A stretch of DNA of 64,000 nucleotides. Origin: Sipunculus nudus (lineage: Eukaryota; Annelida; Sipuncula; Golfingiida; Sipunculidae). The notes beneath the pieces are model-generated. The model was not told the DNA's origin. It searched no databases and saw only the letters and a program-made list of their open reading frames with translations. This document shows positions 2,355 through 31,440 of the stretch, in pieces (position 1 is the first letter of the stretch; each line of letters opens with the position of its first letter). The stretch lies in contig CM049306.1 of NCBI GenBank assembly GCA_026874595.1, forward strand, positions 65,354,019 through 65,418,018. Direction: 5' to 3'. Both the position numbers and the translations under genes were made by a program.

Positions 2355-2385
<31 letters not shown>

Positions 2386-2505: not shown

Positions 2506-3125
2506 TGTGACTGTGCCTCCCGGAGAGGCCGTCACGGACCGCTGCACACGCCGGCCGCCCACCGTAAGGACCCTGCCGCCACTTGCGGCGACTGCACGTG
2601 TCTTCGTGGTATGGCGAAAAACGGCGCGAGATTTGACGAGACTAACAATGTGACCCCTGAATGTGACTGCGAGTGTCAGCCGCTATCCAGCGCTGCAAAC
2701 CATGTGTCTTTAGCGTGAAAAATGACAGAATTATAGGCATTTCTTTGAATGGTCACGTGTTCTCGTTTGACAAGAAACGGTGCGAGATAAATTATGACAC
2801 TTGCGATTGAATGGCTTAGAACTAGAGGGATGCTGTCTAACGCCAAAAACCAGACCTTTCTATCGCAAATATCAACAGAGATAGAAGCTGGAAAACTCCG
2901 AATTTTCAGATTGTCAAGTTTTACCCCAAAATTTGGTAACCATGGTAACGGCAGCACAAAGCAACATGTGCGAAGGGATAAGCCAATGTTCCTAGTTTCA
3001 GATAAGACCCAAAAAATGGTGTCACGTTTAATATTTTTTGAGATATTGCAGAAAAATGATATGTTACGGTGTTTCATGTACCACGCCCCCTGGTGGCTAT
3101 TTCCAAAAAATGAAAAATCAGTTTC
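2506..3125 (+). repeat. GC-rich leader plus partial L unit
   Basis: Bases 2517-2610 form a GC-rich block ('cgctgcacacgccggccg', 'cttgcggcgactgcacgtg') that aligns in order with part of the R module. It continues as an L unit: TCTCG stretch near 2760, palindrome GTAACCATGGTAAC at 2936-2949 and core ACGCCCCCTGGTGG at 3083-3096. It then switches into a 330-bp-type unit. The downstream half of a full L unit is missing. Confidence 0.75.
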
Positions 3126-3545
3126 GGGATATTAGTGTAAGACATAAGATGTAATAGTTTTAAAAGATTCTTTCAAAACTGTGGCCTGTAGAATGCTATA
3201 TGTGAGACGCAAGAAACGGCAAGCAAGCGGATTTGAGGACAACTGAGAAACAGACGGACACACTGACAAAGTGACTCAAGATTGAGTCAAAATGATTCCA
3301 CCAGGATTTTGAAAAGACTCAGAGGAAGAAAATAAGCTATGGTTTATGTAATTGAGGCTTATAATTTTGGAGATATGGCCAAAACATGATATGTTGGAGA
3401 GGTTTGCACCCAGCGCCCCCTAGCGATCGAATTAAAAAAATGAAAAATTGATTTCGAGATAATAGTGTAGGACTTTCAATATGTCAGTTTCAAAAAGATT
3501 CCTGCAAAACTGTGGCCTCCAGGGCAAGATTACTGAAATCTCGAA
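3126..3545 (+). repeat. 330-bp-type repeat units
   Basis: Shows the family landmarks in order: 'gatgtaatagttttaaaa', 'gtggcctgtagaatgcta', 'acggcaagcaagcgg', 'cacactgacaaagtgac', 'ataattttggagatatggcc', a CTCF-like core at 3413-3426 (last base A instead of G), and 'tgaaaaattgatttcgag'. Confidence 0.75.
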
Positions 3546-4014
3546 ATATCTGGTTTGACGAGATATTGTACGAGATATCGCGAGAATTTTAATAAAATCT
3601 TGCAGTACTTGTTAAATGCTACCTGATGCAAAAAACTAGACCTCTCTAGCTTTAAAACTGACAAAGTTAGAAAAATAAGACCCCTTATTTCAGAATATCA
3701 TGACTTTTTCCCAAAAATTCGTAACCATGGTCACGGCAAATTTGAGTCAGCTACACACCAGATGACTGGCCTTGGAATGACGTTTAAAATGAGCTATGTT
3801 TGAAGAAGATCCGATTAATAGTGACAAAGATATGAAGAAAAAACCGTTTTGAGAACTTTTGATGACCTTGACCTTGACCTTTGACCTGTATTGCCCAAAA
3901 ACAATAGGCCCCGAGGACTTTTGCTTGTCTACCAGCTGTATAAGTTAAAAGGCAATTGCCTTAAAATTATGGCCTGTAGAGAGTACACAGACAGACAGAC
4001 AGACAGACAGACTA
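3546..4014 (+). repeat. Downstream half-unit with intact half-site cluster
   Basis: Begins with an inverted TCTCG stretch, has an imperfect palindrome GTAACCATGGTCAC at 3721-3734 and the complete four-half-site cluster at 3863-3887. It ends in 'gtggcctgtagagagtac' and an (ACAG)n tail at about 3990-4014. Confidence 0.75.
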
Positions 4015-4200
4015 GATGACCTGAGGTCACACGCTTGCCGAAAATGATGTAAAGTTAAGTCAGATGAACGAGCAGTGTCAGAGTAAAGAAAATAATCCAT
4101 AGTTTGTGAAGAAAGAACCAATATTAACAAAGTTCTAAAGAGAATAAGATTTTGATATATTTTGATCACTTTGACCTTGACCTTTGACTTATTTGAATAA
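4015..4200 (+). repeat. Short unit fragment with second half-site cluster
   Basis: A 'tagatgacctgaggtcacacgc' segment contains the near-palindrome TGACCTGAGGTCA. About 110 bp of otherwise unplaced sequence and a shorter cluster at 4172-4189 follow. Unlike other clusters, this one leads into 330-bp units rather than an (ACAG)n tail. Confidence 0.6.
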
Positions 4201-5290
4201 TAAACATAGGACTTCCAGATATCATCACGATATATGACAAGTGTAATTTACAAAACGATTCATGCAAAACTGTGGCCAGTAGAATGCTACATGTGAGACG
4301 CAAGAACCGGCAAGCTGGCGAAATTGAGGACAACTGACACACAGACAAACATACTGACTAACTGACCCACGATTGGGAACAGATGACTTAATCATGTTAT
4401 GAAGAAACCTCAGAGGAAGATAATAAGCTATAGTTTATGTAAATGAGGTTTATAGTTTTTGAGATATGGCCAAAAAATTATATGTTGTGCAAGTTTGAGT
4501 GCACCGCCCCCTAGCGGCCAATTCTGGAAAATGAAAATTCCGTTTCGAGATATTAGTGTAAGACATAAGATGTAATAGTTTTAAAAGGATTCTTTCAAAA
4601 CTGTGGCCTGTAGAATGCTATATGTGAGACGCAAGAACCGGCAAGCAAGCGGATTTGAGGACAACTGAGAAACAGACGGACACACAGACCAAGTGACTCA
4701 AGATTGAGACCAAATGAATACACCAGGTTTTTGGAAAGACCCAGAGGAAGAACATAAGCTATAGTTTATGTAAATGAGGTTTATAGTTTTAGAGATATGG
4801 CCAAAAAATGATATGTTGTGCAAGTTTGAGTGCACCGCCCCCTAGCGGCCAATTCTGGAAAATGAAAAATCGGTTTCGAGATATTAGTGTGAGACATAAG
4901 ATGTAATAGTTTTAAAAAGATTCTTTCAAAACTGTGTCCTGTAGAATGCTATATGTGAGACGCAAGAACCGGCAAGCAAGCGGATTTGAGGACAACTGAG
5001 AAACAGACGGACACACAGACAAAGTGACACAAGATTGAGACCAGATGACTAAACGAGTTCATGAAGAAGACTTAGATGAAAAAAATAAACTATAGTTTTT
5101 GTAATTGAGGCTTATAATTTTGGAGATATTGCCAAAACATGATATGTTGGAGAGGTTTGCACCCAGCGCCCCCTAGCGGCCGAATTAAAAAAATGAAAAA
5201 TTGATTTTGAGATAATGGTGTAGGACTTAAGATATGCCAGTTTCAAAAAGATTCCTGCAAAACTGTGGCCTCCAGGGCAAGATTACTGAA
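4201..5290 (+). repeat. Tandem 330-bp unit array
   Basis: CTCF-like cores at 4504-4517, 4835-4848 and 5166-5179 are spaced 331 and 331 bp. The first two read CCGCCCCCTAGCGG and the third GCGCCCCCTAGCGG. Each sits between 'gagatatggcc' (or 'gagatattgcc') upstream and 'aaaatgaaaa...tttcgagata' downstream, like every other unit type in the window. Confidence 0.85.
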
Positions 5291-5300
5291 ATCTCGAAAT

Positions 5301-5317
5301 ATCTCGTTTGACGAGAT
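5301..5317. promoter_or_regulatory. Inverted repeat ATCTCGT-TTG-ACGAGAT
   Basis: Perfect 7-bp arms around a TTG loop. Variants of 'ctcgtttgacgaga' recur several times per unit, for example near 1453, 2762, 6151 (tttcacgaga form), 11644 and 22854, usually beside 'gcgagatttgacgaga'. The function is unknown. It could be a protein site or simply the most conserved part of the ancestral repeat. Confidence 0.5.
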
Positions 5318-5615
5318 ATTATACGAGATATTGCGAGACTCCTAATAGAATCTTGTAGTACTAGGTGAATGCTACCTGATGCAAAAAACTAGACCTCTCT
5401 AGCTGTAAAACTGCCAAAGTTAGAAAAATAAGGCCCCTTATTTTCGAATATCATGACTTTTTCCCAAAAATTCGTAACCATGGTTACGGCAAATTTGAGT
5501 CAGCTACACACCAGATGACTGGCCTTGGAATGATGTTTAAAATGAGCTTTGTTTGAAGAAGATACGACTAATAGTGACAAAGATATGAAGAAAAAACCGT
5601 TTTGAGAACTTTTGA

Positions 5616-5640
5616 TGACCTTGACCTTGACCTTTGACCT
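5616..5640 (-). promoter_or_regulatory. Nuclear-receptor half-site cluster (DR1 + DR0 + DR0)
   Basis: Read on the minus strand this holds four AGGTCA half-sites in direct orientation. The first pair is separated by one A (AGGTCAAAGGTCA, a textbook DR1) and the others abut, giving two TCAAGGTCA extended half-sites of the ERR/FTZ-F1 kind. The same 25-mer occurs at 3863, 10193, 16627, 23164, 24425, 26757 and 28022. Shorter versions are at 4172, 6915, 12404, 14699, 21703 and 25777. Receptor binding is inferred from the consensus only. Confidence 0.55.
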
Positions 5641-5770
5641 GTATTGCCCAAAAACAATAGGCCCCGAGGACTTTTGCTTGTCTACCAGCTGTATAAGTTT
5701 AAAGACAATTGCTGCAAAATTGTGGCCTGTAGAGAGTACACAGACAGACAGACAAACAGACAAACAAACA

Positions 5771-5885
5771 GACATCCGCGACTGACCAACCTGCTTGCCG
5801 AAATCGAAGATTTCCGGCAAGCAACAAACAGACATCCGCGACTGACCAACCTGCTTGCAGAAATCGAAGATTTCCGGCAAGCAAT
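5771..5885 (+). repeat. Hairpin minisatellite, two units
   Basis: Self-complementary 28-mers at 5794-5821 and 5854-5881, 60 bp apart. The first has the best arms: CTTGCCGAAATC pairs with GATTTCCGGCAAG apart from one bulged C. The corresponding array of the second copy has three units, so copy number changed between the duplicates. Confidence 0.8.
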
Positions 5886-7080
5886 AAAGTATGGACTGTG
5901 CCTCCAACATGTATGATCATAGATGGGGCCCGGAGAGGCCGTCACGGACCGCTGCACACGCCGGCCGCCCACCGTAAGGACCCTGCCGCCACTTGCGGCG
6001 ACGGCACGTGACTTCGTGGTTTGGTGAAACACGGCGCGAGATCTGACGAAACTTACATTGTGACCCCTGAATGTGACTGCGAGTGTCAGGCGCTACCCAG
6101 CGCTGCAAACCATGTGTCTGTAGCGTAAAAAAATGAATGGTCCCGTGTTCTCGTTTCACGAGAAACGGTGCGAGATATGACGCGACTTGCTATTGAATGA
6201 CCTAGAACTAAAGAAATGCTATCTAACGCCAAAAACCAGAGCGTTCTATCGCAAATATCGACAGAGATAGAAGCAGGAAAACTCCGTATTTTCAGATTGT
6301 CAAGTTTTACCCCAAAATTTGGTAACCATGGTAACGGCAGCACAAGGGTAAATGTACGAAGGAATAAGGCAATGATCCTAGTTTTAGATGCGACAAAAAA
6401 AATTGCTATATGCTTAATATTTTTTAAGATATTGCGGAAAAATGATAAGTTGTAGTGTTTCCAGTACCATGCCCCCTGGTGGCTATTTTCGAAAAATGAA
6501 AAAACAAGTTCGAGATAATACAGAACAACAGAAAATATGTCACTTTCAGAACCTCATCTGTAAAACTGCAACCTCTAAATCGTATTTAATGAAATCTCGA
6601 AAAAACTCATTTGACGACAAATGGCACGAGATTTTGCGAGACTTACATTAATTTCGCATAGAGCATATTAAATGCTACGCATTGCAAAAAACTAGACCTC
6701 TCTAACTTAAAAACTGAGAAATTTGCAGGGAAATTTTCGAATTTTCTGATTTTCCCCAAAAAATACGTTACCATGGTAACCATTGACCGGAAAAATTTGC
6801 CAGCACTTGGAAAGCTTACATAGTGAGGAATAAAATGAGCTACGGATTATGCGGCTACGCTTATTATTGACGAAGATATGAAGAAAATAAAGATTTTAGG
6901 TTTTTTGGTGACCCTGACCTTGACCTTTGACCGATCATGGCCAAAAACAATAGGCTCCGAGGAGAACAGATCTTACAGTTAATGTATAAGTTTCAGAGCG
7001 ATTGCTTAAAAACTGTGGCCTCTAGCGCGTGTACATACAGACAGACAGACAGACAAACAAACAAACAAACAAACAAACAT
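5886..7080 (+). repeat. Complete L unit
   Basis: GC-rich leader (about 5925-6022), TCTCG stretch near 6148, palindrome GTAACCATGGTAAC at 6322-6335, core ATGCCCCCTGGTGG at 6469-6482, 'aatctcgaaaaaactc' stretch near 6592, second palindrome GTTACCATGGTAAC at 6767-6780, half-site cluster at 6915-6932, 'aaaaacaataggctccgag', and (ACAG/ACAA)n tail at about 7032-7080. This is one of the clearest complete examples of the unit order. Confidence 0.85.
6767..6780. promoter_or_regulatory. RFX X-box-like palindrome GTTACCATGGTAAC
   Basis: Perfect 14-bp palindrome that fits the RFX X-box consensus GTNRCC-N2-RGYAAC. Other GTTACC or GTAACC forms in the first copy start at 1640, 2936, 5474, 6322, 11812, 12256, 14106, 14551, 16485, 17403, 21110, 21555, 22567, 23828, 25629 and 27425. 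Imperfect ones are at 2085, 3721 and 24283. Binding is inference. Confidence 0.5.
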
Positions 7081-7170
7081 ACGCGGGTGATCAACATCCT
7101 TGCGAAAATCGAAGATTTCCGGCAAGCAACAAACAGACAAACTAGACGACCATAGGTCGAACGCTTGCCG
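7081..7170 (+). repeat. Single hairpin unit plus CGACC-N-GGTCG motif
   Basis: One hairpin 28-mer at about 7099-7126 is followed by 'aaacagacaaactagacgac' and a small inverted repeat CGACC-ATA-GGTCG, then 'aacgcttgccggaaat'. The CGACC...GGTCG motif also follows tails near 12560, 14847, 16781, 28306 and 34819. Confidence 0.65.
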
Positions 7171-8580
7171 GAAATCGGAAGTGAAACACAGACGGACAGA
7201 CAGAACATATTGTCGGTTTTCTATTAATGGAATGACTCTCAGGGACATTGCTGAGAATATGTGGCCCGTAGAATGACATATGAGACAAAAGAACAGGCAA
7301 GCAGACAAAGCTGACAACAAAAGACGAACAGACAGATATAGTGACTTAGTGAGACAAGATTGACACCAGATGACATAACCTAGTGATTGAGAAGATTCAA
7401 AGGAAGAAAATGAGTTATAATTTATGTAATTTAGATTTATAGTTTTGGAGGTATGGCGAATTAATGATATACTTGGGAGGCTCGACTGTAGCGCCCTCTA
7501 GCAGACATATTCCGAAGACGACAAATGCGTTTCGTATTATTAGTGTATGACATGAGATGTCCCAGTTTCAAAAGGATTCCGTCAAAGCTGTGGCCTGTAG
7601 AATGCTATATGTAAGGCGTAAGAACCAGCAAGCAGGCGACTTTGAGGATAACGGTCAAACAGATGGACACACTGACAAAGTGACAGAAGATTGAAACCAG
7701 ATGCCTTAATCAGGTTATGGAGAAGACTCAAAGGAAGAAAATAAGCAATAGTTTATGTAACTGAGGCTTTGGGTTTAGAGATATGGCCAATACAATGGTA
7801 TGTGTGTGAGGATCGTGTGCAGCGCCCACTAGTGGCCATATCCGGAAAATGAAAAATTTATTTCTAGATATTAGTGTAAGACATAAGATGTAATAGTTTC
7901 AAAAGGATTCCGTCAAAACTATGGCCTATAGAATGCTATATGTGAGACGCAAGAGCCAACAAGCAGGCGAATTTGAGGACAACTGACAAACAGACGAAAA
8001 CACTGACAAAGTGTCTCAAGATTGAGTCCAGATGACTACTCCAGGTTATGGAGAAGACTCAAAGGAAGAAAAACCTACAGTTTATGTAACTGAGGTTTAT
8101 AGTTTTGGAGATATTGCCAAAGCATGATATGTTGGGAGAGGTTCGGGTTCAGCGCCCCCTAGCGGCCATATCCGGAAAATGAACAATTGGTTTCGAGATA
8201 TTAGTGTAAGACTTAAGATGTAATAGTTTCAAAAGGATTCTTTCAAAACTGTGGCCTGTAGAATGCTATATGTGAGACTTAAGAGCAAGCAGGCGAATTT
8301 GAGGACAACTGACAAACAGACAGACACACTGACAAAGTGTCACAAAATTGTGACCAGATGACTACACTAGGTTATGGAGAAGACTCATAGGAAGAAAATA
8401 AGCTATAGTTTATGTAATTGAGGCTTATAATTTTTGAGATATGGCCAAAATATGATATGTTCGGGAGGTTCGCATCCAGGGCCCCCTAGCGGCCCTATTA
8501 AAAAAATGAAAAAACAATTTCGAGATACTAGTGTAGGACTTATAATATGTCAGTTTCAAAAAGATTCCTGCAATAATGTG
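7171..8580 (+). repeat. Tandem 330-bp unit array, four cores
   Basis: CTCF-like cores at 7491 (GCGCCCTCTAGCAG), 7822 (GCGCCCACTAGTGG), 8152 (GCGCCCCCTAGCGG) and 8479 (GGGCCCCCTAGCGG) are spaced 331, 330 and 327 bp. The four units have clearly diverged outside the core and its immediate flanks. Each carries 'gtggcctgtagaatg' and a degenerate 'aaacagacggacacactgac' stretch, which looks like the decayed equivalent of the (ACAG)n tail. Confidence 0.87.
8152..8165 (-). promoter_or_regulatory. CTCF-like core (minus strand CCGCTAGGGGGCGC)
   Basis: The minus-strand sequence fits the published CTCF core form CC-R-S-Y-AG-R-K-GGC-R-S at every position. Identical or near-identical cores are at 5166, 9744, 15850, 16177, 25033, 26307, 41310, 42584, 44277 and 44608. 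All lie on the same strand. No binding data can be read from sequence. Confidence 0.55.
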
Positions 8581-8795
8581 GCCTTTGGCGCAAGATGAAT
8601 GAAATCTCGAAATATCTCTATTCACGAGATATTTTACGAGATACTGCAAGACTTGTAATAAAATCTTGTAGTACTAGTTGAATGCTTCCTGATGCAAAAA
8701 ACTAGATCACTCTAGCTATAAAACTGACAAAGTTACAAAAATTAGGCCTTTTATTTTCGAAAATCATGAGTTTTCCCCAAAAATGTGGACAAACG
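8581..8795 (+). repeat. Truncated downstream half-unit
   Basis: Contains 'gaaatctcgaaatatctcta', 'aaaaactagatcactctagc' and 'gagttttccccaaaaatgtg'. It breaks off where the palindrome would start and is joined to 'gacaaacggacagacagaac', the start of another 330-bp array. The palindrome, half-site cluster and most of the tail are missing. Confidence 0.7.
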
Positions 8796-9850
8796 GACAG
8801 ACAGAACATATTGTCGGTTTTCTATTAATGGAATGACTCTCAGGGACATTGCTGAGAATATGTGGCCCGTAGAATGACATATGAGACAAAAGAACAGGCA
8901 AGCAGACAAAGCTGACAACAAAAGACGAACAGACAGACATACTGACTTTGTGAGACAAGATTGACACCAGATGACATAACCTGGTGATTGAGAAGATTCA
9001 AAGGAAGAAAATGATTTATGTAATTTAGATTTATAGTTTTGGAGGTATGGCGAATTAATGATATACTTGGGAGGCTCGACTGTAGCGCCCTCTAGCAGAC
9101 ATGTTCCCAAGACGACAAATGCGTTTCGTATTATTAGTGTATGACAAGAGATGTCCCAGTTTCAAAAGGATTCCGTCAAAGCTGTGGCCTGTAGAATGCT
9201 ATATGTAAGGCGTAAGAACCAGCAAGCAGGCGACTTTGAGGATAACGGACAAACAGATGGACACACTGACAAAGTGACAGAAGATTGAAACCATATGCTT
9301 TAATCAGGTTATGGAGAAGACTCAAAGGAAGAAAATAAGCGATAGCTTATGTAACTGAGGCTTTGGGTGTAGAGATATGGCCAATACAATGGTATGTGTG
9401 TGAGGGTCGTGTGCAGCGCCCACTAGTGGCCATATCAGGAAAATGAAAAATTCATTTTTAGAAATTAGTGTCAGACATAAGATGTAAAAGTTTCAAAAGG
9501 ATTCCGTCAAAACTGTGGCCTATAGAATGCTATATGTGAGACGCAAGAACCAACAAGCAGGCGAATTTGAGGCATTGACAAACAGACGAAAACACTGACA
9601 AAGTGACTCAAGATTGAGTCCAGATGACTACTCCAGGTTATGGAGAAGACCCAAAGGAAGAAAAAAGCTACAGTTTATGTAACTGAGGTTTATAATTTTG
9701 GAGATATGGCCAAAATATGATATGTTCGGGAGGTTCGCATCCAGCGCCCCCTAGCGGCCCTATTCAAAAAATGAAAAAACAATTTCGAGATACTAGTGTA
9801 GGACTTATAATATGTCAGTTTCAAAAAGATTCCTGCAATTATTTGGCCTT
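8796..9850 (+). repeat. Tandem 330-bp unit array, three cores
   Basis: Cores at 9084 (GCGCCCTCTAGCAG), 9416 (GCGCCCACTAGTGG) and 9744 (GCGCCCCCTAGCGG), spaced 332 and 328 bp. The order of core variants repeats that of 7491-8479 with one unit missing. This points to duplication of a multi-unit block rather than of single units. Confidence 0.85.
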
Positions 9851-10332
9851 ATGCGCAAGATGAATGAAATCTCGAAATATCTCTATTCACGAGAAATTTT
9901 ACGAGATACTGCAAGACTTGTAATAAAATCTTGTAGTACTAGTTAAATGCCCCTTATGCAAAAAACTAGATCACTCTAGCTATAAAACTGACAAAGTTAC
10001 AAGAATTAGGCCTTTTATTTTCGAAAATCATGAGTTTTCCCCAAAAATGTGTAACCATAGAAACAGCAGATTTCAGCAACATATATATCAGAAGAAAGGC
10101 CTTGGAATGCCGATTAAAATGAGCCATGTTTGAAGTGGCTATGACAAATAGTAATGGAGATATGAAGAAAAGAGCACTTTAGGAACTTTTGATGACCTTG
10201 ACCTTGACCTTTGACCTATATTGCCCAAAAACAATAGGCTTCTTGCATTTTTGATTTTACACAAACTGTTAAAGTTTGAAAGCGATGGGATCAAAATTGC
10301 GACCTTTAGAGACTGGACAGACAAACAAACAG
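9851..10332 (+). repeat. Downstream half-unit with decayed palindrome
   Basis: The palindrome position (about 10051) reads GTAACCATAGAAAC, so the right half is lost. The half-site cluster at 10193-10217 is intact, followed by 'caaaaacaataggcttc' and a short ACAG/ACAA tail near 10316-10332. The same decayed form recurs at 23.02, 26.62 and 27.88 kb and marks a subfamily. Confidence 0.75.
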
Positions 10333-10619
10333 ACTAGACGACCAGAGTTCGAACGCTTGCCGGAAGCGGAAATAAGAAATTCAAACTAGGAGACAACATA
10401 CAGCAGGCAGGCAGTTTACATTTGGAACTGGTCAAATGAAGTACCCGAATAATGGCGTAAACAGAAGCACAATTTTGTGTAGTTATGCTGATTTTCAAAA
10501 GTCGCAGATGAGTAGACAGACAGACAGACAAGAAAAAACTCCATGTGAAGGCCATGTACTCCTGTCATAGAGAATGGAAAACAGTCTATTAGAATAAAAC
10601 TCCATATTTTGAATTTCAA
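10333..10619 (+). repeat. S module (spacer with internal ACAG run)
   Basis: Begins after the tail with 'tagacgaccagagttcgaac' and 'gcttgccggaagcgg', contains 'atggcgtaaacagaagcac', an internal (ACAG)n near 10512-10530, and ends with 'ccatgtactcctgtcat' and 'actccatattttgaattt'. Related copies are at 12561-12889, 16781-17099, about 28590-28920 and 34817-35060. No coding potential. Confidence 0.7.
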
Positions 10620-10884
10620 GAATAAGAAGAATTTAATTGTAACGTATATTAGGTCACCATGGCAATGGAATAATATGAAAGAGTCCCCAGGAGGATAAAC
10701 GCAATAAATCTAGTATCAGATGCTGCAATCAATGTTGTGACAGTGTGTGTAGTTTTGGAGATATGGCACAATAATGATTGCTGCAGCGCCATCTGGCGGC
10801 TTATTTCTAAACGGAAAAAAATAAGTTTCGAAATATTTTATTTTTTATTATAAATATTTAATGTATAATTAAAATTAAACCCCT
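10620..10884 (+). repeat. 203-bp-type unit
   Basis: One unit of the family seen at 1-709, with core GCGCCATCTGGCGG at 10786-10799 and 'tgtataattaaaattaaacc' leading into the R module. Confidence 0.75.
10786..10799 (-). promoter_or_regulatory. CTCF-like core (minus strand CCGCCAGATGGCGC)
   Basis: Fits the CC-R-S-Y-AG-R-K-GGC-R-S form at all positions although the centre differs from the 330-bp-family core. Identical cores occur at 13015, 13228 and 28445, with a one-base variant at 29036. Confidence 0.5.
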
Positions 10885-11210
10885 GCCCCCCAACTGCTAA
10901 ACCAGGGATCCGCCCATATTTTGACAAACGCATCTATAAAATCGGGGATCCGTCCCTGGTTTGAAAGATTTGCCAGTGGTTCCTGGCAACACAAGTGGCC
11001 CCACAAAGGGGACACAATGAAAATAACAGGTGTGTTCAATTCAAATTTAGCGGCTTTTGTCCTCTTTTCAATGCTGCTTTGTGAAATTCATGGATGACCG
11101 TGCACGCCAACTTGCAACTGTAATGGCCTTGCTGGCACTTATCGGTCAACCCTGAAGCCACTTGTGCTCACGGCATTTGGATTTATCTTCATCATTTGAT
11201 AAAAAACGAG
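10885..11210 (+). repeat. R module, copy 2 (frame broken)
   Basis: Same landmarks as 710-1020. The short frame open in other copies is interrupted here by a TGA just after the 'gaaattcatgga' stretch (about 11094), which argues that the frame is not maintained. Confidence 0.75.
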
Positions 11211-12560
11211 GCCAGATTTGACGGGAATTGCTATATAATCACATTATATGAATGAGAGTGTCAGACGCTGTCACATGCTTAAAACTATATGTCTGTAGTG
11301 TAAAAAATGACAGCATTATAGGCATTTTTTAAAATGGTCCTCTGTTTTCGTTTGACGACAAATGGTGCGAGATTTTACGAGATATTCACTTGTGTCACTT
11401 TAATCTACTAAAAAATCCTAGAACAATAAAAACTAGACCCTTGTAGCATAAAAATAGCCGAGATACAGATACTTCTTTAAAATCTCGAATTTCTCGTTTG
11501 GTGGGAGATGATGCGAGATTGGGCGAGATTTGCAATTCCTTCATATTAAGCTCCAAAAAAGCTACCAAATGCTGAAAACAACTGCTCTTTAGCTTAAAAG
11601 GTGGTCAGGTTATAAGCATTTCTGTGAAATCTCGTAATTTCTCGTTTGACGAAAAACCGAGCGAGATTTGACGAGATTTGCAACTGAATGACTTAGAACA
11701 AAGGGAATGCTGCCTTATGCAAAAAATTAGACCCTTGTAGCATAAATATTAACAGAGATAAAAGCCAAAAACCTCATGTTTTCCGATGGTCAAGTTTTAC
11801 CCCAAAATTTGGTAACCATGGTTACCGCAGCACAAGGCTATATATACGAAGGAATAAGGCGATGATACTAGTTTTAGATGCGACAAGAAAAATTGTTATA
11901 TGCTTAATATTTTTTTAGATATTGCAGAAAAATGATAAGTTGTAGTGTTTCCAGTACCACGCTCCCTGGTGGCTTTTTTCGAAAAATGAAAAAGCAAGTT
12001 CGAGATAATACAGAAAAACAGAAAATATGTCACTTTCAGAACCTTAGCTGTAAAACTGCAACCTCTAAATCGTATTTTATGAAATCTCGAAAAGTCTCAT
12101 TTGACGACAAATGGCACGAGATTTTGCGAGACTTCTATTAATTTTCCATAGAGCATATTAAATGCTACACAATGCAAAAAACTAGACCTCTCTAACTTAA
12201 AAAATGAGAAATTTGGAGGGAAATTTTCGAATTTTCTGATTTCCCCCCATAATACGTTACCATGGTAACCATTGACCGGAAAAATTTGCTAGCACTTGGA
12301 ATGCTAACATAAAGAGGAATAAAATGAGCTACAGATTATGCGGCTACGATTATTATTGACGAAGATATGAAGAAAATAAAAATTTAAGGTTTTTTGGTGA
12401 CAATGACCTTGACCTTTGACCGATCATGACCAAAAACAATAGGCTCCGAGGAGAACCGATCTTACACTATATCTATAAGTTTCAGAGCGATTGGTGAAAA
12501 ATTGTGGCCTGTAGAGCACAGACAGACAGACAGACAAACAAACAAACAGACAAACAGACT
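11211..12560 (+). repeat. Complete L unit
   Basis: TCTCG stretches (11340-11680), palindrome GTAACCATGGTTAC at 11812-11825, core ACGCTCCCTGGTGG at 11959-11972 (one C changed to T), second palindrome GTTACCATGGTAAC at 12256-12269, half-site cluster at 12404-12421, and ACAG/ACAA tail at about 12518-12560. Confidence 0.82.
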
Positions 12561-12889
12561 AGACGACCAGAGGTCGAACACTTGCCGGAAGCGGAAATAA
12601 GAAAGTCAGACTAGGAGAAACATTCAGCAGGCAGTTTACATTTGGAACTAGTCAAATGAAGTACCCGAATAATGGCGTAAACAGAAGCACAATTTTGTGT
12701 GGTTATGCTGATTTTTAAAAGTCGCAAAAGAGTAGAAAGACAAACAGACAGACAGACGGGAAAAAAACTCCATGTGAAGGCCATGTACTCCTGTCATGGA
12801 GAATGGAAAACAGTCTATTAGAATAAAACTCCATATTTTGAATTTCAAGAATAAGAAGAATTTAATTGTAACGTATATTAGGTCACCAA
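12561..12889 (+). repeat. S module
   Basis: Starts with CGACC-AGA-GGTCG and is otherwise like 10333-10619, including an internal run of ACAG/ACAA near 12736-12758. Confidence 0.7.
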
Positions 12890-18613: not shown

Positions 18614-19609
18614 CAAGGGACCTATGGGTCACTGTGCTCAGCTGACGTTAACCTTGAAGGTGAAAATCTAAAATAATATCTAATGGAGATAAAGTGTAAG
18701 AGGTAATAAAGGCCATGGTTGGTTTATATGATTGGTTTGTATTGATGAGCAAGAAATTGTTGCAAAAAATATTTTGTGACCTGACCATGTGTTTCCTAAT
18801 GTTGAAACTAAAGCATGTGAGCAGTTTGTGAACAAATGACCTGTACTATTACCATGATCATTAGTTGGTTTTTCAATTAACTGTTGACATTTCAGTAGTT
18901 TACACATTTGTTCAATTGAATCTATTTTTTTGTATAATATATATTATTGAATATATATGTATTTTATTTATGAAATGTATACAGTTGAAATATAGCTAAT
19001 TAACAACATAAAACAGGGCAAACAAAGCCTGATCTCAAATTCTGCTGAGGCAGGAAAATAATGAAGAAATGTTTGTATTAAATCCTAATTTTTTTATCAC
19101 ATCAATTATTTTCTAATTTAAGTTTATATTTCTATACATTTCCAATTTAACATATATATCTGAATATAAAAGTTGATTCATAATTCTCAATTGCATCATC
19201 ATAAATCTCGATCTTGTCAGATAACACCACATCATGCATACAAATGTTTATTTATTTTTTACCACAAAAATATATCTTTTAAATCTGCAAAACAATAAAT
19301 ATCTAAAAATAATACTTGATTTAGATTTCACAATTTTTAATTGTGTCTTTATTTATCCATAATGTACTTCATATTTTATAATAATTAAAGCATACTGATG
19401 GGTTCCTTTATATTTGTTAAAATCATTTAAAAGAAAATTGATTTCTTTAAAAATGCTACATTACACAACATTGCATCTTCTGGATTACACCTTGAATTAT
19501 TTTTTCAAGGAAAGTTTTTGCATATCGGAGTGGAAACAGCATTACAATTAAGGAGATACAGTGAAAACAATAACAATTACTGCATAACACTTGGTGGGTT
19601 GGGTTTTCT

Positions 19610-19622
19610 GGGGGGGGGGGGG
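19610..19622 (+). repeat. Poly-G run
   Basis: Thirteen G here and eleven in the second copy (61039-61049). This accounts for 2 bp of the 6-bp offset drift across block C. Confidence 0.9.
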
Positions 19623-20412
19623 TGATTGGGGTGTCGATATGAGAATAACTGTACACCTGTAACAGCACAGCAGGGGATCTCCCCCAGTGACTGTAACAAA
19701 TCAGAAACCCTGGCATAGCTGACTTCCAGTGACCTGGAGTGGGACCCTGCATCTGTAATCAAAGCAAGTGACTACAGAAAAAAAATCAATAACTATCTTA
19801 ATTTTCAAGCTTTTATTTCCAAATTTCAGATTTAGACAAACTAAATATTTATGTTAACATGCTGTGAAAATTAAATCAATGGTGCTTACAGGAAAAAAAC
19901 GTGCCATGGTCAAAGTTGGGCAAAATTTAAGGTACTGATTTTTTTTTATGCTAATAACTTAAAAAATTTACAAAATTCAGATCTAATTTTGGGTAAACAA
20001 TTGAATCTTAATTAAACATAGTTATATACTTGAAAAAGTAGACTCTAGTTTCAAAATTTTTTATGTTAAGTGAGTTATTATTTTTCCTGATTTTTTACAA
20101 AGTCCAATATGTTTGGGCCCACAACTTAAAGAATTTATACTTTAGAGACTTAATTTCTGGCATGTACATAGGAACTATATAGAGGAATATTTATGGTAAA
20201 TATGAGGAAAAATAGATGAGTGGTTTTGATATGAGGCAGTCCTGAAGTGTGAAAATAGGATTTTAATAAAAAATTGAGGTTTTTCCTTAATTTCTCAAAG
20301 GAACGAAGTCCCAAAGACCCAGTTTTCGGCTTGGTAGGAGATCTTGGGGACATCTAACATTATGGTGAATTTTGGATTCCTAGGTCTTACGGTTTCAAAA
20401 CGTGCCACATCT

Positions 20413-20448
20413 ACGGACGGACGGACGGACGGACAGACGGACGGACGA
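20413..20448 (+). repeat. (ACGG)n microsatellite
   Basis: Imperfect ACGG run with one ACAG. The second copy has one repeat fewer, giving the remaining 4 bp of drift. It sits just inside the right end of the AT-rich insertion, an arrangement I remember from molluscan repeats. Confidence 0.85.
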
Positions 20449-20497
20449 CGGACAATGGACCACGACTATAGCTCAGATGACTTATAGTCAGCTGAGC

Positions 20498-21880
20498 TAA
20501 AAACGAGGCGATATTTGACGAGAAATGCTATATAAACACATAATGTGACTGAAAGTGTGAGACGCTGTCACATGCTGAAAACTATATGTCTGTAGTGTAA
20601 AATATGACAGCATTATAGGCATTTGTTTAAATGGTCCCCTGTTCTCGTTTGACGACAGATGGTGCGAGATTTGACGAAATATTCACTTGTGTCACTTTAA
20701 TCTACTTAAACATCCTGGAACAATAACAGACTAGACTCTTGTAGCATATAAATAGCCGAGATACAGATATTCGTTTAAAATCTCGAATTTCTCGTTTGGT
20801 GGGAGATGATGCGAGATTGGGCGAGATTTGCAATTCATTCATATTAAGCTCTAAAATAGCTACCAAATGCAGAAAACAACTGCTCTTTAGCTTAAAAGGT
20901 GATCAGGTTATAAGCATTTCTGTGAAATCTCGTAATTTCTCGTTTGACGAAAAACCGAGCGAGATTTGACGAGATTTGCAACTGAATGACTTAGAACCAA
21001 GGGAATGTTGCCTTATGCAAAACACTTGACCCTTGTAGCATAAATATTTACAGAGATAAAAGCCAAAAACATCATGTTTTCAGATTGTCAAGTTTTACCC
21101 CAAAATTTGGTAACCATGGTAACCGCAGCACAAGGCTATATGTACGAAGGAATAAGGCAATGATCCTAGTTTAAGATGCGACCAAAAAAATTGTTATATG
21201 CTTAATATTTTTTTAGATATTGCGGGAAAATGATAAGTTCTGGTGTTTCCAGTACCACGCCCCCTGGTGGCTTTTTTCGAAAAATGAAAAAACAAGTTTG
21301 AGATAATACAGAAAAACAGAAAATATGTCACTTTCAGAATCTTAGCTGTAAAACTGCCACCTCTAAATCGTATTTAATAAAATCTCGAAAAGTCTCATTT
21401 GACGACAAATGGCACGAGATTTTGCGAGACTTGCATTAATTTTGCATAGAACCTATAAAACGCTACACAATGCAGAAAACTAGACCTCTCTATCTTAATA
21501 AATGAGAAATTTGGAAGGAAATTTTCGAATTTTCTGATTTTCCCCAAAAAATACGTTACCATGGTAACCATTGACGGGGAAAATGTGCTAGCACTTGGAA
21601 AGCTAACATTAAGAGGAATAAAATGAGCTACAGATTATGCGGCTGCGATTATTATTGACGAAGATATGAAGAAAATAAAGATTTTAGGTTTTTTGGTGAC
21701 ACTGACCTTGACCTTTGACCGATCATGACCAAAAACAATAGGCTCCGAGGAGAAAAGATCTTACACTTAGTGCATAAGTTTCAGAGCGATTGCTTAAAAA
21801 CTGTGGCCTGTAGCGCGTGTACATACAGACAAACAAACAGACAGACAGACAGACAAACAAACAAACAAACAAACATACGC
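20498..21880 (+). repeat. Complete L unit with long ACAG/ACAA tail
   Basis: Palindromes at 21110-21123 and 21555-21568, core ACGCCCCCTGGTGG at 21257-21270, half-site cluster at 21703-21720, tail at about 21825-21875 mixing ACAG and ACAA. Confidence 0.83.
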
Positions 21881-22103
21881 GGGTGATCAACATGCTTGCG
21901 AAAATCGAAGATTTCCGGCAAGCAACAAACAAACAAACATACGGAACTGACCAACATACTTGCCGAAATCTTTGATTCCGGCAAGTAACAAACAAACATA
22001 CGGAACTGACCAACATACTTGCGAAAATCGAAGATTTCCGGCAAGTAACAAACAGACATCCGCGACTGACCAACCAGCTTGCGAAAATCGAACATTCCGG
22101 CAA
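21881..22103 (+). repeat. Hairpin minisatellite, four units
   Basis: Four units between the tail and the GC-rich leader. The second has an altered stem ('gccgaaatctttgattccgg') that still pairs as 'gaaatc...gattccgg', and the fourth has lost part of the right arm ('gaacattccggcaag'). Linkers alternate 'catacggaactgaccaacat' and 'catccgcgactgaccaacc'. Confidence 0.78.
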
Positions 22104-23367
22104 GCAATAAAGTTGTGACTGTGCCTCCAACATGTATGATCATAGATGGGGCCCGGAGAGGCCGTCACGCACCGCTGCACACGCCGGCCGCCCACCGTAA
22201 GGACCCTGCCGGCACTTGCGGCGACGGCACGTGACTTCGCGGTTTGGTGAAACACGGCGCGAGATTTGACGAGACTTACAATGCGACCCCTGAATGTGAC
22301 TGCGAGTGTCAGCCGCTATCCGGCGCTGCAAGCCATGTGTCTGTAGCGTAAAAAATGACAGAATTATAGGCATTTCTTTGAATGGTCACGTGTTCTCGTT
22401 TCACGAGAAACGGCGCGAGATATGACGAGACTTGCAATTGAACGGCTTAGAACTAGAGGGATGCTGTCTAACGCCAAAAACCCGACCTTTCTATCGCAAA
22501 TATCAACAGAGATAGAAGCTGGAAAACTCCGAATTTTCAGATTGTCAAGTTTTACCCCAAAATTTGGTAACCATGGTAACGGCAGCACAAAGCAACATGT
22601 GCGAAGGGATAAGCCAATGTTCCTAGTTTCAGATACGACCAAAAAAATGGTGTCACGTTTAATATTTTTTGAGATATTGCAGAAAAATGATATGTTACAG
22701 TGTTTCAGGTACCACGCCCCCTGGTGGCTATTTCCAAAAAATGAAAAATTGGTTTCGAGATATTTCTAGATAACACAAAATATGTCATTTTCAAAGTCAT
22801 AGTTTAAAAAATGTGACCTGTAAGCCATGTTAAATGAAATCTCGAAAATTCTCGTTTGACGAGAAATGGTGCGAGATTTTACGAGACTTTCACTTGTATA
22901 ATAAAAAGCTTATTTAGTACTATCTGATGCAAAAAACTAGAACTCTCTAGCTTTAAAAATTACAAAGTTAGAAAAATTAGGCCTTTTATTTTCGAAAATC
23001 ATGAGTTTTCCCCCAAAATGTGTAACCATAGAAACAGCAGATTTCAGCAACATATATATCAGAAGAAAGGCCTTGGAATGCCGATTAAAATGAGCCATGT
23101 TTGAAGTGGCTATGACAAATAGTAATGGAGATATGAAGAAAAGAGCACTTTAGGAACTTTTGATGACCTTGACCTTGACCTTTGACCTATATTGCCCAAA
23201 AACAATAGGCTTCTTGCATTTTTGATTTTACACAAACTGTGAAAGTTTGAAAGCGATGGGATCAAAATTGCGACCTGTAGAGACTGGACAGACAAACAAA
23301 CAAACAGACAAACAGACATCCGCGACTGACCAACCAGCTTGCGAAAATCGAAGATTTCCGGCAAGCA
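22104..23367 (+). repeat. 1.26-kb unit, first of the 22-28 kb array
   Basis: GC-rich leader (about 22147-22245), palindrome at 22567-22580, core ACGCCCCCTGGTGG at 22714-22727, TCTCG inverted repeat near 22852, decayed palindrome near 23022, half-site cluster at 23164-23188, ACAG/ACAA tail at about 23287-23318 and one hairpin (about 23337-23364). 'aataaagttgtgactgtgcc' starts this unit at about 22104 and the next at about 23369. Confidence 0.82.
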
Positions 23368-24606
23368 ATAAAGTTGTGACTGTGCCTCCAACATGTATGA
23401 TCATAGATGGGGCCCGGAGAGGCCGTCACGCACCGCTGCACACGCCGGCCGCCCACCGTAAGGACCCTGCCGCCACTTGCGGCGACGGCACGTGTCTTCG
23501 TGGTTTGGCGAAAAACGGCGCGAGATTTGACGAGACTAACAATGTGACCCCTGAATGTGACTGCGAGTGTCAGCCGCTATCCAGCGCTGCAAACCATGTG
23601 TCTGTAGCGTGAAAAATGACAGAATTATAGGCATTTCTTTGAATGGTCACGTGTTCTCGTTTCACGAGAAACGGTGCGAGATATGACGAGACTTGCGATT
23701 GAATGACTAAGAACTAGACGGATGCTGTCTAACGCCAAACACCAGACCTTTCTATCGCAAATATCAACAGAGATAGAAGCTGGAAAACTCCGAATTTTCA
23801 GATTGTCAAGTTTTACCCCAAAATTTGGTAACCATGGTAACGGCAGCACAAAGCAACGTGTGCGAAGGGATAAGCCAACGTTCCTAGTTTCAGATACGAC
23901 CAAAAAAATGGTGTCACGTTTAATATTTTTTGAGATATTGCAGAAAAATGATATGTTACAGTGTTTCATGTACCACGCCCCCTGGTGGCTATTTCCAAAA
24001 AATGAAAAATTGGTTTCGAGATATTTCTAAATAACACAAAATATGTCATTTTCAAAGTCATAGTTTAAAAAATGCGACCTGTAAGCCATATTTAATGAAA
24101 TCTCGAAAATTCTCGTTTGACGAGATATTATACGAGATATCGCGAGACTTTTAATAAAATCCTGCAGTACTTGTTAAATGCTACCTGATGCAAAAAACTA
24201 GAACTCTCTAGCTTTAAAAATGACAAAGTTAGAAAAAATTGTCCTTTGATTTTCGATTTACATCACTTTTACCCAAAAATACGTAACCATGGTGACAACC
24301 AATTTGAATCAGCTACACACCAGACGAAAGGCCTTGGAATGACGATTAAAATGAGCCATGTTTGAAGTGGCTATGACAAATAGTAATTGAGATATGAAGA
24401 AAAGAGCACTTTAGGAACTTTTGATGACCTTGACCTTGACCTTTGACCTATATTGCCCAAAAACAATAGGCTTCTTGCATTTTTGATTTTACACAAACTG
24501 TGAAAGTTTGAAAGCGATGGGATCAAAATTGTGACCTGTAGAGACTGGACAGACAAACAAACAAACAAACAAACAGACAAACAGACATCCGCAACTGACC
24601 AACATA
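23368..24606 (+). repeat. Second, chimeric 1.26-kb unit
   Basis: Like the previous unit through the core at 23975-23988. Around 24120 it switches to a different downstream half: 'gagatattatacgagatatc', palindrome variant GTAACCATGGTGAC at 24283-24296, cluster at 24425-24449, and tail 24547-24590. Confidence 0.78.
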
Positions 24607-24690
24607 CTTGCGAAAATCGAAGATTTCCGGCAAGTAACAAACGGAACTGATCAACATACTTGTCGAAATCTCTGATTCCGGCAAGCAATA
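24607..24690 (+). repeat. Two hairpin units
   Basis: One canonical hairpin and one of the altered 'gtcgaaatctctgattccgg' kind. The altered hairpin is also the first element of the 1275-bp unit and marks its boundaries at 25919, 40913, 42188 and 43463. Confidence 0.72.
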
Positions 24691-25918
24691 AACTATAACG
24701 CGACAGAAATGGCAAACCGGCCGGCAAAGAGTGCCTGTGGTCACTTATTTTATACGGCGAACGCTATAATTTTTGCAGTCACGGGAAAGCGTGTCTGTCT
24801 TTCATACTAAAACGCGTGCATGCATGCGTGATGGCATATGTATTTGTGCATGCGGGTTTTAATTTTTACAAAGTTGCTAAAATTTGTGGGGACCGTGTAT
24901 GATTAAACAAAAGAGGTCATGGGCAGAAAGGCCATGAAACGCCCATTCATATGGTGTACAGTTTATGTACCTAACATGTGTAGTTTTGGAGATATGGTTA
25001 AACAATGATAGTAGGTACGGGGTTGCAGTGCAGCGCCCCCTAGCGGAAATTTTCCAAAAACTGAACAATTGCTTTCGAGATATTAGTGTATGACGTAACA
25101 TGTATCAGTTTCAAAAGGATGCCTGCATATCTGTGGCCTATAGGGCATGTCACCGTGAAATCGCGAAATCTCATTCGACGAGAAACGGTGCGAGATTTTG
25201 CAAGATTTTTGGTTGGATCACCGAGAACTCACCAAGCGCTACAAGATGCAAAAATTTTGACCTCTCTAGCATAAAAACTGACAGAGTTAGAAGCTGAAAA
25301 CTGCATATTTTCAAAATTGAAAGGTTTTACCCCAAAAATAGAGAAATCTGGCAATAGCGCACTTTGGCACCTATGCGCAAAAACAAGCCCATGGACCCTA
25401 GTTTAAGGTGCTGTGATGGAAATGGCCCAATGTTTAATAGTTCTGGAGGTATAGCACCAAAACAAATTTTCATGTTTTTTCATCTGCAACGCCCCCTGGC
25501 GGCCATTTCCAAAATCTGAAAAACCCGTTTCGAGATATTCTTATGTTACATAAAATATCTCAGAATCAGTAAAATTGCTGCAAATTTGAAAAATATCACG
25601 AAATTCCATGATTTCTCCCCAAAATTGCGTAACCATGGTAACAGCGAAATGAGGCAATTTTGCAGTGTTGGAAGTGGCCATTCAGTGGCAAATAAAACGG
25701 GCAACAGATTAGGTGCCTACGGCTATTTTTGACGAAGGTATGAAGAAAAAACCGTTTTTGAGCTTTTTGGTGACCCTGACCTTGACCCTTGACCGATCAT
25801 GACCAAAAACAATAGGCTCCGAGAAGAACCGATTATACACTCTATCTATAAGTTTCAGGACGATTGGTGCAAAATTGTGGCCTGTAGAGCGGGGACATAC
25901 AGACAAACAAACAAACGG
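24645..25918 (+). repeat. 1275-bp unit, copy 1
   Basis: Starts at 'acaaacggaactgatcaaca'. It contains 'aaacgcgtgcatgcatgcgt', core GCGCCCCCTAGCGG at 25033-25046, a TCTCATTCGACGAGA stretch near 25165, a second core ACGCCCCCTGGCGG at 25489-25502, palindrome GTAACCATGGTAAC at 25629-25642, a half-site cluster with one site changed (25777-25794) and an ACAA tail near 25900-25915. Two CTCF-like cores of different type in one unit make it a link between the L and 330-bp families. Confidence 0.83.
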
Positions 25919-26470
25919 AACTGATCAACATACTTGTCGAAATCTCTGATTCCGGCAAGCAATAAACTATAACGCGACAGAAATGGCAAACCGGCCGGCA
26001 AAGAGTGCCTGTGGTCACTTATTTTATACGGCGAACGCTATAATTTTTGCAGTCACGGGAAAGCGTGTCTGTCTTTCATACTAAAACGCGTGCATGCATG
26101 CGTGATGGCATATGTATTTGTGCATGCGGGTTTTAATTTTTACAAAGTTGCTAAAATTTGTGGGGACCGTGTATGATTAAACAAAAGAGGTCATGGGCAG
26201 AAAGGCCATGAAACGCCCATTCATATGGTGTACAGTTTATGTACCTAACATGTGTAGTTTTGGAGATATGGTTAAACAATGATAGTAGGTACGGGGTTGC
26301 AGTGCAGCGCCCCCTAGCGGAAATTTTCCAAAAACTGAACAATTGCTTTCGAGATATTAGTGTATGACGTAACATGTATCAGTTTCAAAAGGATGCCTGC
26401 ATATCTGTGGCCTATAGGGCATGTCACCGTGAAATCGCGAAATCTCATTCGACGAGAAACGGTGCGAGAT
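25919..26470 (+). repeat. 1275-bp unit, copy 2, truncated
   Basis: Essentially identical to the start of the previous unit at offset 1274, including the core at 26307-26320. Near 26470, within 'ggtgcgagatttt', it switches to another unit type ('acgagactttcacttgtat'). Confidence 0.83.
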
Positions 26471-27735
26471 TTTACGAGACTTTCACTTGTATGATAAAAA
26501 GCTTATTTAGTACTATCTGATGCAAAAAACTAGAACTCTCTAGCTTTAAAAATGACAAAGTTAGAAAAATTAGGCCTTTTATTTTCGAAAATCATGAGTT
26601 TTCCCCAAAAATGTGTAACCATAGAAACAGCAGATTTCAGCAACATATATATCAGAAGAAAGGCCTTGGAATGCCGATTAAAATGAGCCATATTTGAAGT
26701 GGCTATGACAAATAGTAATGGAGATATGAAGAAAAGAGCACTTAAGGAACTTTTGATGACCTTGACCTTGACCTTTGACCTATATTGCCCAAAAACAATA
26801 GGCCTCCAGGACTTTTCCTTGTCTACCATCTGTGTAAGTTTAAAAGCAATTGCTGCAAAATTGTGGCCTGTAGAGAGTACACAGACAGACAGACAGACAA
26901 ACAGACAAACAGACATCCGCGACTGACCAACCTGCTTGCAGAAATCGAAGATTTCCGGCAAGCAATAAAGTTGTGACTGTGCCTCCAACATGTACGATAA
27001 TAGATGGGGCCCGGAGAGGCCGTCACGGACCGCTGCACACGCCGGCCGCCCACCGTAAGGACCCTGCCGCCACTTGCGGCGACGGCACGTGTCTTCGTGG
27101 TTTGGCGTAAAACGGCGCGAGATTTGACGAGACTAACAATGTAACCCCTGAATGTGACCGCGAGTGTCAGCCGCTATGCAGCGCTGCATACCATGTGTCT
27201 GTAGCGTCAAAAATGACAGAATTATAGGCATTTCTTTGAATGGTCACGTGTTCTCGTTTCACGAGAAACGGTGCGGGATATGACGAGACTTGCGATTGAA
27301 CGGCTTAGAACTAGAGGGATGCTGTCTAACGCCAAAAACCAGACCTTTCTATCGCAAATATCAACAGAGATAGAAGCTGGAAAACTCCGCATTTTCAGAT
27401 TGTCAAGTTTTACCCCAAAATTCGGTAACCATGGTAACGGCAGCACAAAGCTACATGTGCGAAGGGATAAGCCAATGTTCCTAGTGTCAGATACGACAAA
27501 AAAAATGGTGTCACGTTTAATATTTTTTGAGATATTGCAGAAAAATGAAATGTTACAGTGTTTCAGGTACCACGCCCCCTGGTGGCTATTTCCAAAAAAT
27601 GAAAAATTGGTTTCGAGATATTTCTTAATAACACAAAATATGTCATTTTCAAAGTCATAGTTTAAAAAATGCGACCTGTAAGCCATATTTAATGAAATCT
27701 CGAAAATTCTCGTTTGACGAGAAATGGTGCGAGAT
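26471..27735 (+). repeat. 1265-bp unit, copy 1
   Basis: Repeats at offset 1265. It includes a decayed palindrome near 26617, half-site cluster at 26757-26781, ACAG tail near 26882-26915, one hairpin, GC-rich leader (about 27005-27103), palindrome at 27425-27438 and core ACGCCCCCTGGTGG at 27572-27585. Confidence 0.82.
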
Positions 27736-28290
27736 TTTACGAGACTTTCACTTGTATGATAAAAAGCTTATTTAGTACTATCTGATGCAAAAAACTAGAA
27801 CTCTCTAGCTTTAAAAATGACAAAGTTAGAAAAATTAGGCCTTTTATTTTCGAAAATCATGAGTTTTCCCCAAAAATGTGTAACCATAGAAACAGCAGAT
27901 TTCAGCAACATATATATCAGAAGAAAGGCCTTGGAATGCCGATTAAAATGAGCCATATTTGAAGTGGCTATGACAAATAGTAATGGAGATATGAAGAAAA
28001 GAGCACTTAAGGAACTTTTGATGACCTTGACCTTGACCTTTGACCTATATTGCCCAAAAACAATAGGCCTCCAGGACTTTTCCTTGTCTACCATCTGTGT
28101 AAGTTTAAAAGCAATTGCTGCAAAATTGTGGCCTGTAGAGAGTACACAGACAGACAGACAGACAAACAGACAAAAAGACATCCGCGACTGACCAACCTGC
28201 TTGCAGAAATCGAAGATTTCCGGCAAGCAACAAACAGACAAACAGACATCCGCGACTGACCAACCTGCTTGCAGAAATCGAAGATTTCCG
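27736..28290 (+). repeat. 1265-bp unit, copy 2, truncated, with hairpins
   Basis: Nearly identical to 26471 onward, through the cluster at 28022-28046 and the ACAG tail at about 28146-28175. Two hairpin units follow, then the array switches to the CGACC-AGA-GGTC motif. A 232-codon frame on the minus strand crosses this stretch but reads only repeat sequence. Confidence 0.8.
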
Positions 28291-28394
28291 GCAAGCAACA
28301 AACTAGACGACCAGAGGTCAAACACTTGCCGGAAATGGCCGGTAATAAGACAGCGAAACAGACAGACAGTTATTAGGCAGACAGACAGGGAACG
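28291..28394 (+). repeat. Short S-type fragment
   Basis: Contains 'gacgaccagaggtcaaacac', 'ttgccggaaatggccgg' and two ACAG patches, then joins a 203-bp-type unit at 'aacactgtctatagttttgg'. Confidence 0.6.
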
Positions 28395-29055
28395 TATAAC
28401 ACTGTCTATAGTTTTGGAGATATGGCACAATGATGATTGCTGCAGCGCCATCTGGCGGCTATTTCTAAAAGGGCAAAAAATGTTTCGAGACATTTTATTT
28501 TTTTATTATATATATTTGATGTATAATTAAAATTTAACCCCCGCAGAATACGACAGAGTCCCCACGAGGTTAAAGGCATTAAATCTAGTTCCGGAAATGG
28601 CCGGAAATAAGACAGCAAAACAGACGGACAGTTACTAGTCAGGCAGACAGGGAACGTTTGGATTTGATCAAATGAACAACCGCTATCATGGTTAAAATGG
28701 AAGTACATTTTTATGTGATTTCGCTGATTTTCAATAGCCACAAATGAGTAGACAGACAGAGGGAAAATAACTCCATGTGTAGGCAATGTACTCCTGTCAT
28801 GGAGAATGGAAAGCATGAATAAAATAAGCGTCAGTCAATTAGAATAAATCTTCATATTTTGAATTTCGGGAAAAAGAAGAATTTAATTGTAACCTATATT
28901 AGGCCCCCATGGTAACGGAAGAATATGACAGAGTCTTCACGAGGATAAACCCATTAAATCTAGTTTCAGATGCTGCAATCAATGTTGTGACACTATCTCT
29001 AGTTTTATAGATATGGCAAAAAAATGATTGCTGCAGTGCCATCTGGCGGCTATTA
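28395..29055 (+). repeat. 203-bp-type units with S module between
   Basis: Cores at 28445-28458 (GCGCCATCTGGCGG) and 29036-29049 (GTGCCATCTGGCGG). An S module lies between them at about 28590-28920. The sequence runs without break into 29056, the start of the second large copy. Confidence 0.72.

Positions 29056-31409: not shown

Positions 31410-31440
<31 letters not shown>

Follow-up and report, generated by a model that had tools for sequence, protein, structure and literature searches.

In bivalves, the non-autonomous Helentrons Cg_HINE and Pearl combine a 5' subterminal inverted repeat (subTIR) with inverted repeat, a GTCY-like tetranucleotide microsatellite, satellite-like tandem repeats in the centre, and a 3' subTIR accompanied by a palindrome (PMC7492417); by such parts HINEs are defined in both oyster and fly (PMC7492417, PMC4067079). 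In mammals, CTCF motifs were dispersed widely within single lineages by short interspersed nuclear elements (SINEs), namely B2 in rodents, SINEC in dog and MAR/MIR in opossum (PMC3368268). CTCF sites also lie in the tandem repeats of the macrosatellites Dxz4/DXZ4 and D4Z4 (PMC6985041, PMC5899087, PMC2639723); Dxz4 acts in an orientation-dependent manner, and tandem arrays of CTCF sites can direct contacts (PMC6985041, PMC5899087). We analysed here a window of 64,000 nucleotides from the sipunculan Sipunculus nudus (contig CM049306.1, hereafter C1, positions 65354019-65418018; the genome searched comprises 1.43 Gb in 153 contigs). This window appears to be a partly duplicated pile of repeats derived from HINE-type elements, among whose parts lie modules that each carry a CTCF-like core. 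The reading that we favour, and that we hold to be rather probable, is that an element-borne CTCF site was amplified by a rolling-circle repeat of the HINE type, i.e. a non-autonomous Helentron.

Compared by described structure, the locus resembles Cg_HINE and Pearl in all the parts listed above. A difference from their description is that the S. nudus repeats hold a CTCF-type site together with a nuclear-receptor-type cluster; the word CTCF occurs 0 times in the text of PMC7492417. Like the mammalian SINEs, a mobile repeat seems to have spread CTCF motifs widely within one lineage, but the SINEs are retrotransposons whose binding was shown by chromatin immunoprecipitation, whereas HINE-type parts and tandem arrays are found here. 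As in Dxz4 and D4Z4, the sites are in tandem repeats, but each of those macrosatellites is a single locus with large units and demonstrated contacts or insulation, whereas the present units are small and belong to a dispersed repeat.

Modules were found with two hidden Markov models (HMMs) of the boxes flanking the core, core columns being excluded; the models were trained on 41 modules picked by matrix score, and modules with unlike flanks could escape them. Among the 77 flank pairs obtained in the window, one (27525) is spurious and overlaps a real module. The remaining 76 modules reproduce the totals of an earlier, sequence-only reading of this DNA, which had counted 37 in the first copy, 6 in an extra segment and 33 in the second copy. 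Its claim that all but two of them lie on one strand also holds, as 74 of the 76 modules are co-oriented and two are reversed (17698 and 59127), and the strict 14-mer that it had proposed occurs 59 times on the plus strand and twice on the minus strand of the window. The modules are distributed as follows.

196..29052, minus strand (motif minus in 36, plus in 1): 37 CTCF modules of the first copy, by flank-only HMM and matrix scan.
29251..34237, minus strand: 9 CTCF modules of the first piece of the second copy, by flank-only HMM.
41308..44624, minus strand: 6 CTCF modules of the extra segment, by matrix scan and flank-only HMM.
45980..62696, minus strand (one, 59128-59146, plus): 24 CTCF modules of the second piece of the second copy, by flank-only HMM and duplication pairs.
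17699..17717 (copy 59128-59146), plus strand: core of the inverted module, by matrix scan and flank-only HMM.

The cores match the vertebrate CTCF matrix (JASPAR MA0139.1). A scan of the window, of the kind proposed by the sequence-only reading, gives 120, 72, 61 and 45 matches at p<1e-4, 1e-5, 1e-6 and 1e-7, respectively, against means of 13.5, 1.4, 0.15 and 0.03 in 40 dinucleotide shuffles. The matches at p<1e-5 are on the minus strand in 68 cases out of 72, and all but two of them (16734 and 58164, outside modules) are module cores. Thus, 70 of the 76 cores reach p<1e-5 and 61 reach p<1e-6, and the CTCF-core resemblance noticed by eye is borne out rather than undone by low scores. As repeats multiply any motif and their copies are not independent, a control with 2000 column-permuted matrices, half of them also base-complemented, was added. 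Their maxima are 40, 14 and 8 matches at p<1e-5, 1e-6 and 1e-7, compared to 72, 61 and 45 for the real matrix, which none of the 2000 equals, and the column-reversed matrix yields 10, 0 and 0. These results show that the core resembles the CTCF matrix specifically.

The six modules below p<1e-5 include the weak cores singled out earlier at 198, 399 and 17250. Four are cores of the 202-bp type, in the units near positions 198 and 399 and in the copies of these units, with half of the motif gone (3.6-3.9 bits), and the other two are the pair 17250/58677, which scores 9.7. The statement that the core occupies every repeat family stands for four module types, A (the 331-bp tandem unit), B, C (the 202-bp unit) and D; it does not extend to the 364-bp satellite at 37084-40332, with just seven weak matrix matches (8.9 bits, p<1e-4), nor to the hairpin repeats of 51-128 bp, where the window scan gave zero matches at p<1e-5. 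This satellite, of about nine copies, lies inside the extra segment and is unlike the modules. Each type is exemplified by one core, located by matrix scan.

4502..4520, minus strand: strong type-A core TGGCCGCTAGGGGGCGGTG, 25.2 bits.
22712..22730, minus strand: type-B core TAGCCACCAGGGGGCGTGG, 21.7 bits.
13013..13031, minus strand: type-C (202-bp) core TAGCCGCCAGATGGCGCTG, 22.3 bits.
25487..25505, minus strand: type-D core TGGCCGCCAGGGGGCGTTG, 22.5 bits.

The four types share a common plan: a box near ATAGTTTTGGAGATATGGCCAAAA is separated from the core by a spacer, and after the core comes a second box, near AAAATGAAAAAT..GTTTCGAGATAT, both boxes being AT-rich and conserved. Among 19 non-redundant modules, mean pairwise identity is 0.75 in the core and 0.49 elsewhere, which places the core sixth of 202 windows, while identity in the spacer beside it falls to 0.2-0.4 between types. 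The 22 distinct cores, a set nearly all matrix-picked and from which the consensus was also drawn, have a mean score of 18.8 bits, compared to 10.9 (standard deviation 1.3) under equal random changes, with 0 of 5000 trials reaching it, or 6 of 5000 if the changed positions stay fixed; matrix information and core variability are inversely related in them (rho -0.60, p=0.006). Judged from these alignments, the core is kept CTCF-like between diverged families, and its variants are ones that CTCF tolerates.

CTCF arose in the bilaterian ancestor (PMC10658181). The sequence-only reading had made its proposal depend on the host having a CTCF gene, and an orthologue is indeed found at C11:67037578-67038510, in one open frame, when the human CTCF finger region is used as query (E value 4.9e-109, 56% identity, query positions 2-309). 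The runner-up match in the genome is far behind (E value 9.6e-56), and the best PDB match of the C11 stretch is human CTCF (E value 6e-109). A simple finger pattern, which also served to extract the reading residues, recognises ten fingers within the match; one more, the eleventh, can be seen in the longer frame. The four reading residues of fingers 3, 4 and 5 are the same as in human (TGER, ESKR and DYKR), and besides fingers 6 and 7, considered below, the remaining fingers have one to three residues unlike human. We predict that CTCF is likely to bind the cores. The same query has 320 matches in the genome, and C2H2 zinc-finger genes are clustered on contigs C16, C7, C9 and C11; the matches listed are concentrated on C16 and C7.

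The surroundings of the modules have the parts of a HINE. In minus-strand orientation, in which the CTCF motif is forward, a hairpin comes first, then a GTCT/GTTT microsatellite and a AGGTCAAAGGTCAAGGTCA cluster; the modules follow, and a 3' subTIR and its palindrome close the series. The 5' subTIR lies near an inverted repeat (GCTTGCCGGAAATC with GATTTCNGCAAGC, e.g. 23337-23366 minus); the microsatellite, in GTCT/GTTT runs, precedes central tandem repeats, which are the 331-bp and 202-bp arrays; and the 3' end consists of GATTTCCGGCAAGC with CGACC-N3-GGTCG, a palindrome found within 70 bases of seven of the ten exact 3' subTIR matches, some of which are duplicates of each other.

23337..23366, minus strand: 5' subTIR with inverted repeat (GCTTGCCGGAAATC ... 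GATTTTCGCAAGC), from sequence.
23288..23318, minus strand: GTCT/GTTT microsatellite after the hairpin, by tandem repeat finder.
23170..23188, minus strand: nuclear-receptor-type cluster AGGTCAAAGGTCAAGGTCA, by sequence count.
14867..14879, minus strand: 3' subTIR ATTTCCGGCAAGC, reverse complement of the 5' subTIR, by sequence match.
14851..14863, minus strand: palindrome CGACC-TAT-GGTCG after that 3' subTIR, by sequence match.

The AGGTCAAAGGTCAAGGTCA cluster, made of AGGTCA words, shares its strand with the CTCF motif and has the microsatellite on one side and the modules on the other. It is found at 3869-3887 and at 22 further minus-strand places, 12 of these sites being exact and 11 having a single mismatch, where 0 are expected, and TCAAGGTCA occurs 45 times for 0.93 expected. 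We take this cluster to be of the nuclear-receptor type, DR1 plus NR5A/ERR-like. Separately, at 20400-20500 on the minus strand, GTCCGTC repeats come after an inverted repeat, TTAGCTCAGCTGAC...GTCATCTGAGCTATAG, and the whole resembles one end of a different, similarly built element. ARAGORN found zero transfer RNA in the window and Rfam zero families at the gathering threshold, although a worn SINE head could be missed by the two programs. Stop-to-stop frames of 120 amino acids or more number 34 in the window and were judged by eye to be repeat-derived.

Amplification is apparent at two scales. Within the window, three near-identical pairs of blocks, obtained by self-comparison, make up most of the sequence.

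1..5761, plus strand: duplicated block, copy at 29056-34816, 99.9% identical.
5753..9832, plus strand: duplicated block, copy at 45267-49346, 99.2% identical.
8789..22577, plus strand: duplicated block, copy at 50215-64000, 99.65% identical.

Genome-wide, the exact 15-mer core CGCCCCCTAGCGGCC occurs 3842 times, 1658 and 2184 times by strand, and its reversed control 0 times; among the matches listed on C1, its spacing is often about 330 bp. In about 30 kb of C1 surrounding copies of the 15-mer, a biased sample since the stretches were selected through the 15-mer, all 38 of the cores of flank-found modules reach p<1e-5 and 30 reach p<1e-6; 20 of these modules lack the search 15-mer, and all 20 reach p<1e-5 and 12 reach p<1e-6. 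A flank-plus-core scan of viral contigs gave 0 matches. As to the composition of the assembly, nine COX1 matches of near-identical score lie on contigs C60, C61, C62, C66, C72, C74, C75 and C89, with one more on C123, a contig that may be mitochondrial, and a fragment on C5 (11 matches in total). The COX1 of C60 is a 577-amino-acid protein of bacterial type, with a top identity of 58% among the 80 GTDB loci listed, and the assembly may thus contain contigs from one or more bacteria, perhaps symbionts.

Besides the matrix-picked origin of the 22 cores, several points weigh against our favoured reading. CTCF occupancy of the cores is itself a prediction from sequence. In the host protein, three of the four reading residues of finger 6 (QNSA for QGTM) and two of the four of finger 7 (RTDI for RSDV) are changed relative to human. 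The core is not singled out within the modules, as the two flanking boxes are about as conserved and one of them, the box after the core, slightly more (0.77 identity, the top window among the 19 non-redundant modules). In the 331-bp family, the core is moderately quiet, with a diversity of 0.158 against a mean of 0.232 in 56 non-duplicate monomers, and 64 of 312 windows are quieter; a strong within-family constraint on the core was sought in these monomers and none was found. Finally, many units lack one HINE terminus, and the sole stretch with all parts in order, from about 31558 down to about 28325 on the minus strand, crosses the duplication joint 29055/29056 and has mismatches at its 3' end.

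Some of these points agree with an alternative in which a CTCF-like word, present by chance in the ancestral repeat, was copied along without binding or benefit. Any repeat multiplies any motif, the conserved flanking boxes indicate that the core is not alone in being retained, and conservation within the family is moderate. What such hitch-hiking hardly accounts for is the full 19-base match in four types so diverged that their spacers share an identity of 0.2-0.4, together with the fact that the differences between types are those tolerated by CTCF; we thus regard it as unlikely. We read the overall pattern as that of a site retained over the long term as families diverged, with no strong constraint visible in recent copies, and such a pattern fits better with a benefit to the element than with a host boundary.

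A host boundary was nevertheless suggested by the sequence-only reading, from the co-orientation of the motifs. Here the locus would be a macrosatellite comparable to mammalian Dxz4, selected by the host as an insulator or boundary and maintained because its CTCF sites form a unidirectional row. The co-oriented motifs in a tandem array that characterise a Dxz4-like boundary are present, with 74 of 76 modules pointing one way; the strong motifs are dense, with 72 at p<1e-5 in 64 kb, and the array is duplicated nearly intact. But head-to-tail HINE-type repeats are co-oriented without selection, simply because they are copied head to tail, and the 15-mer is split between strands genome-wide. Since head-to-tail copying explains direction, co-orientation is no evidence of an insulator, and we have rejected it as a sign of selection. 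Furthermore, the modules belong to a dispersed repeat, with thousands of exact core copies, and core constraint in the 331-bp family is only moderate. Selection of the array as an insulator therefore seems quite doubtful to us; direction would be a by-product, and the insulator idea is a testable consequence rather than a finding.

It is highly improbable that the core is instead the site of another zinc-finger protein (for instance a KRAB-like or C2H2 factor that silences repeats) or of the element's replication protein, for although many of the 320 finger-region matches lie in C2H2 clusters, the match covers the whole 19-base matrix, tolerated alternatives included, and the CTCF orthologue retains the reading residues of fingers 3-5.

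Under the favoured reading of a CTCF site borne and amplified by a HINE-type element, host CTCF would bind the module sites, and rolling-circle and tandem copying would both spread these sites and align them within an array. The site could have been retained through family divergence by being helpful to the element, for instance through open chromatin or escape from silencing, and effects on host chromosome folding would be a side effect. Should loop extrusion depend on motif orientation in the host, an array would be expected to halt cohesin arriving from one direction but not from the other, as has been reported for Dxz4 in mouse. A bolder possibility, to which we give little credence, is a Helentron-borne regulatory cassette, combining the CTCF site and the nuclear-receptor-type cluster and kept for host CTCF recruitment, whose tandem amplification would produce one-way cohesin stops acting as chromosome boundaries, i.e. 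a Dxz4-like device made repeatedly.

In the open-access literature searched (one collection, largely by title), we found no earlier report of CTCF sites in Helentrons, and, among the titles listed, no comparable report of CTCF motifs with Helitrons, or of CTCF with transposable elements, satellite DNA or repeats in molluscs or invertebrates. Echinoderms showed no CTCF orientation pattern (PMC13317027), and in the bobtail squid a directionality of the motif was not identified (PMC10658182). For the question whether CTCF direction matters outside vertebrates, arrays of tens of strong, co-oriented motifs offer a sharp natural test: if extrusion is orientation-dependent, one-sided Hi-C stripes are predicted at these arrays. 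If our reading is true, the transposon-borne spread of CTCF sites would extend from mammalian SINEs to rolling-circle elements.

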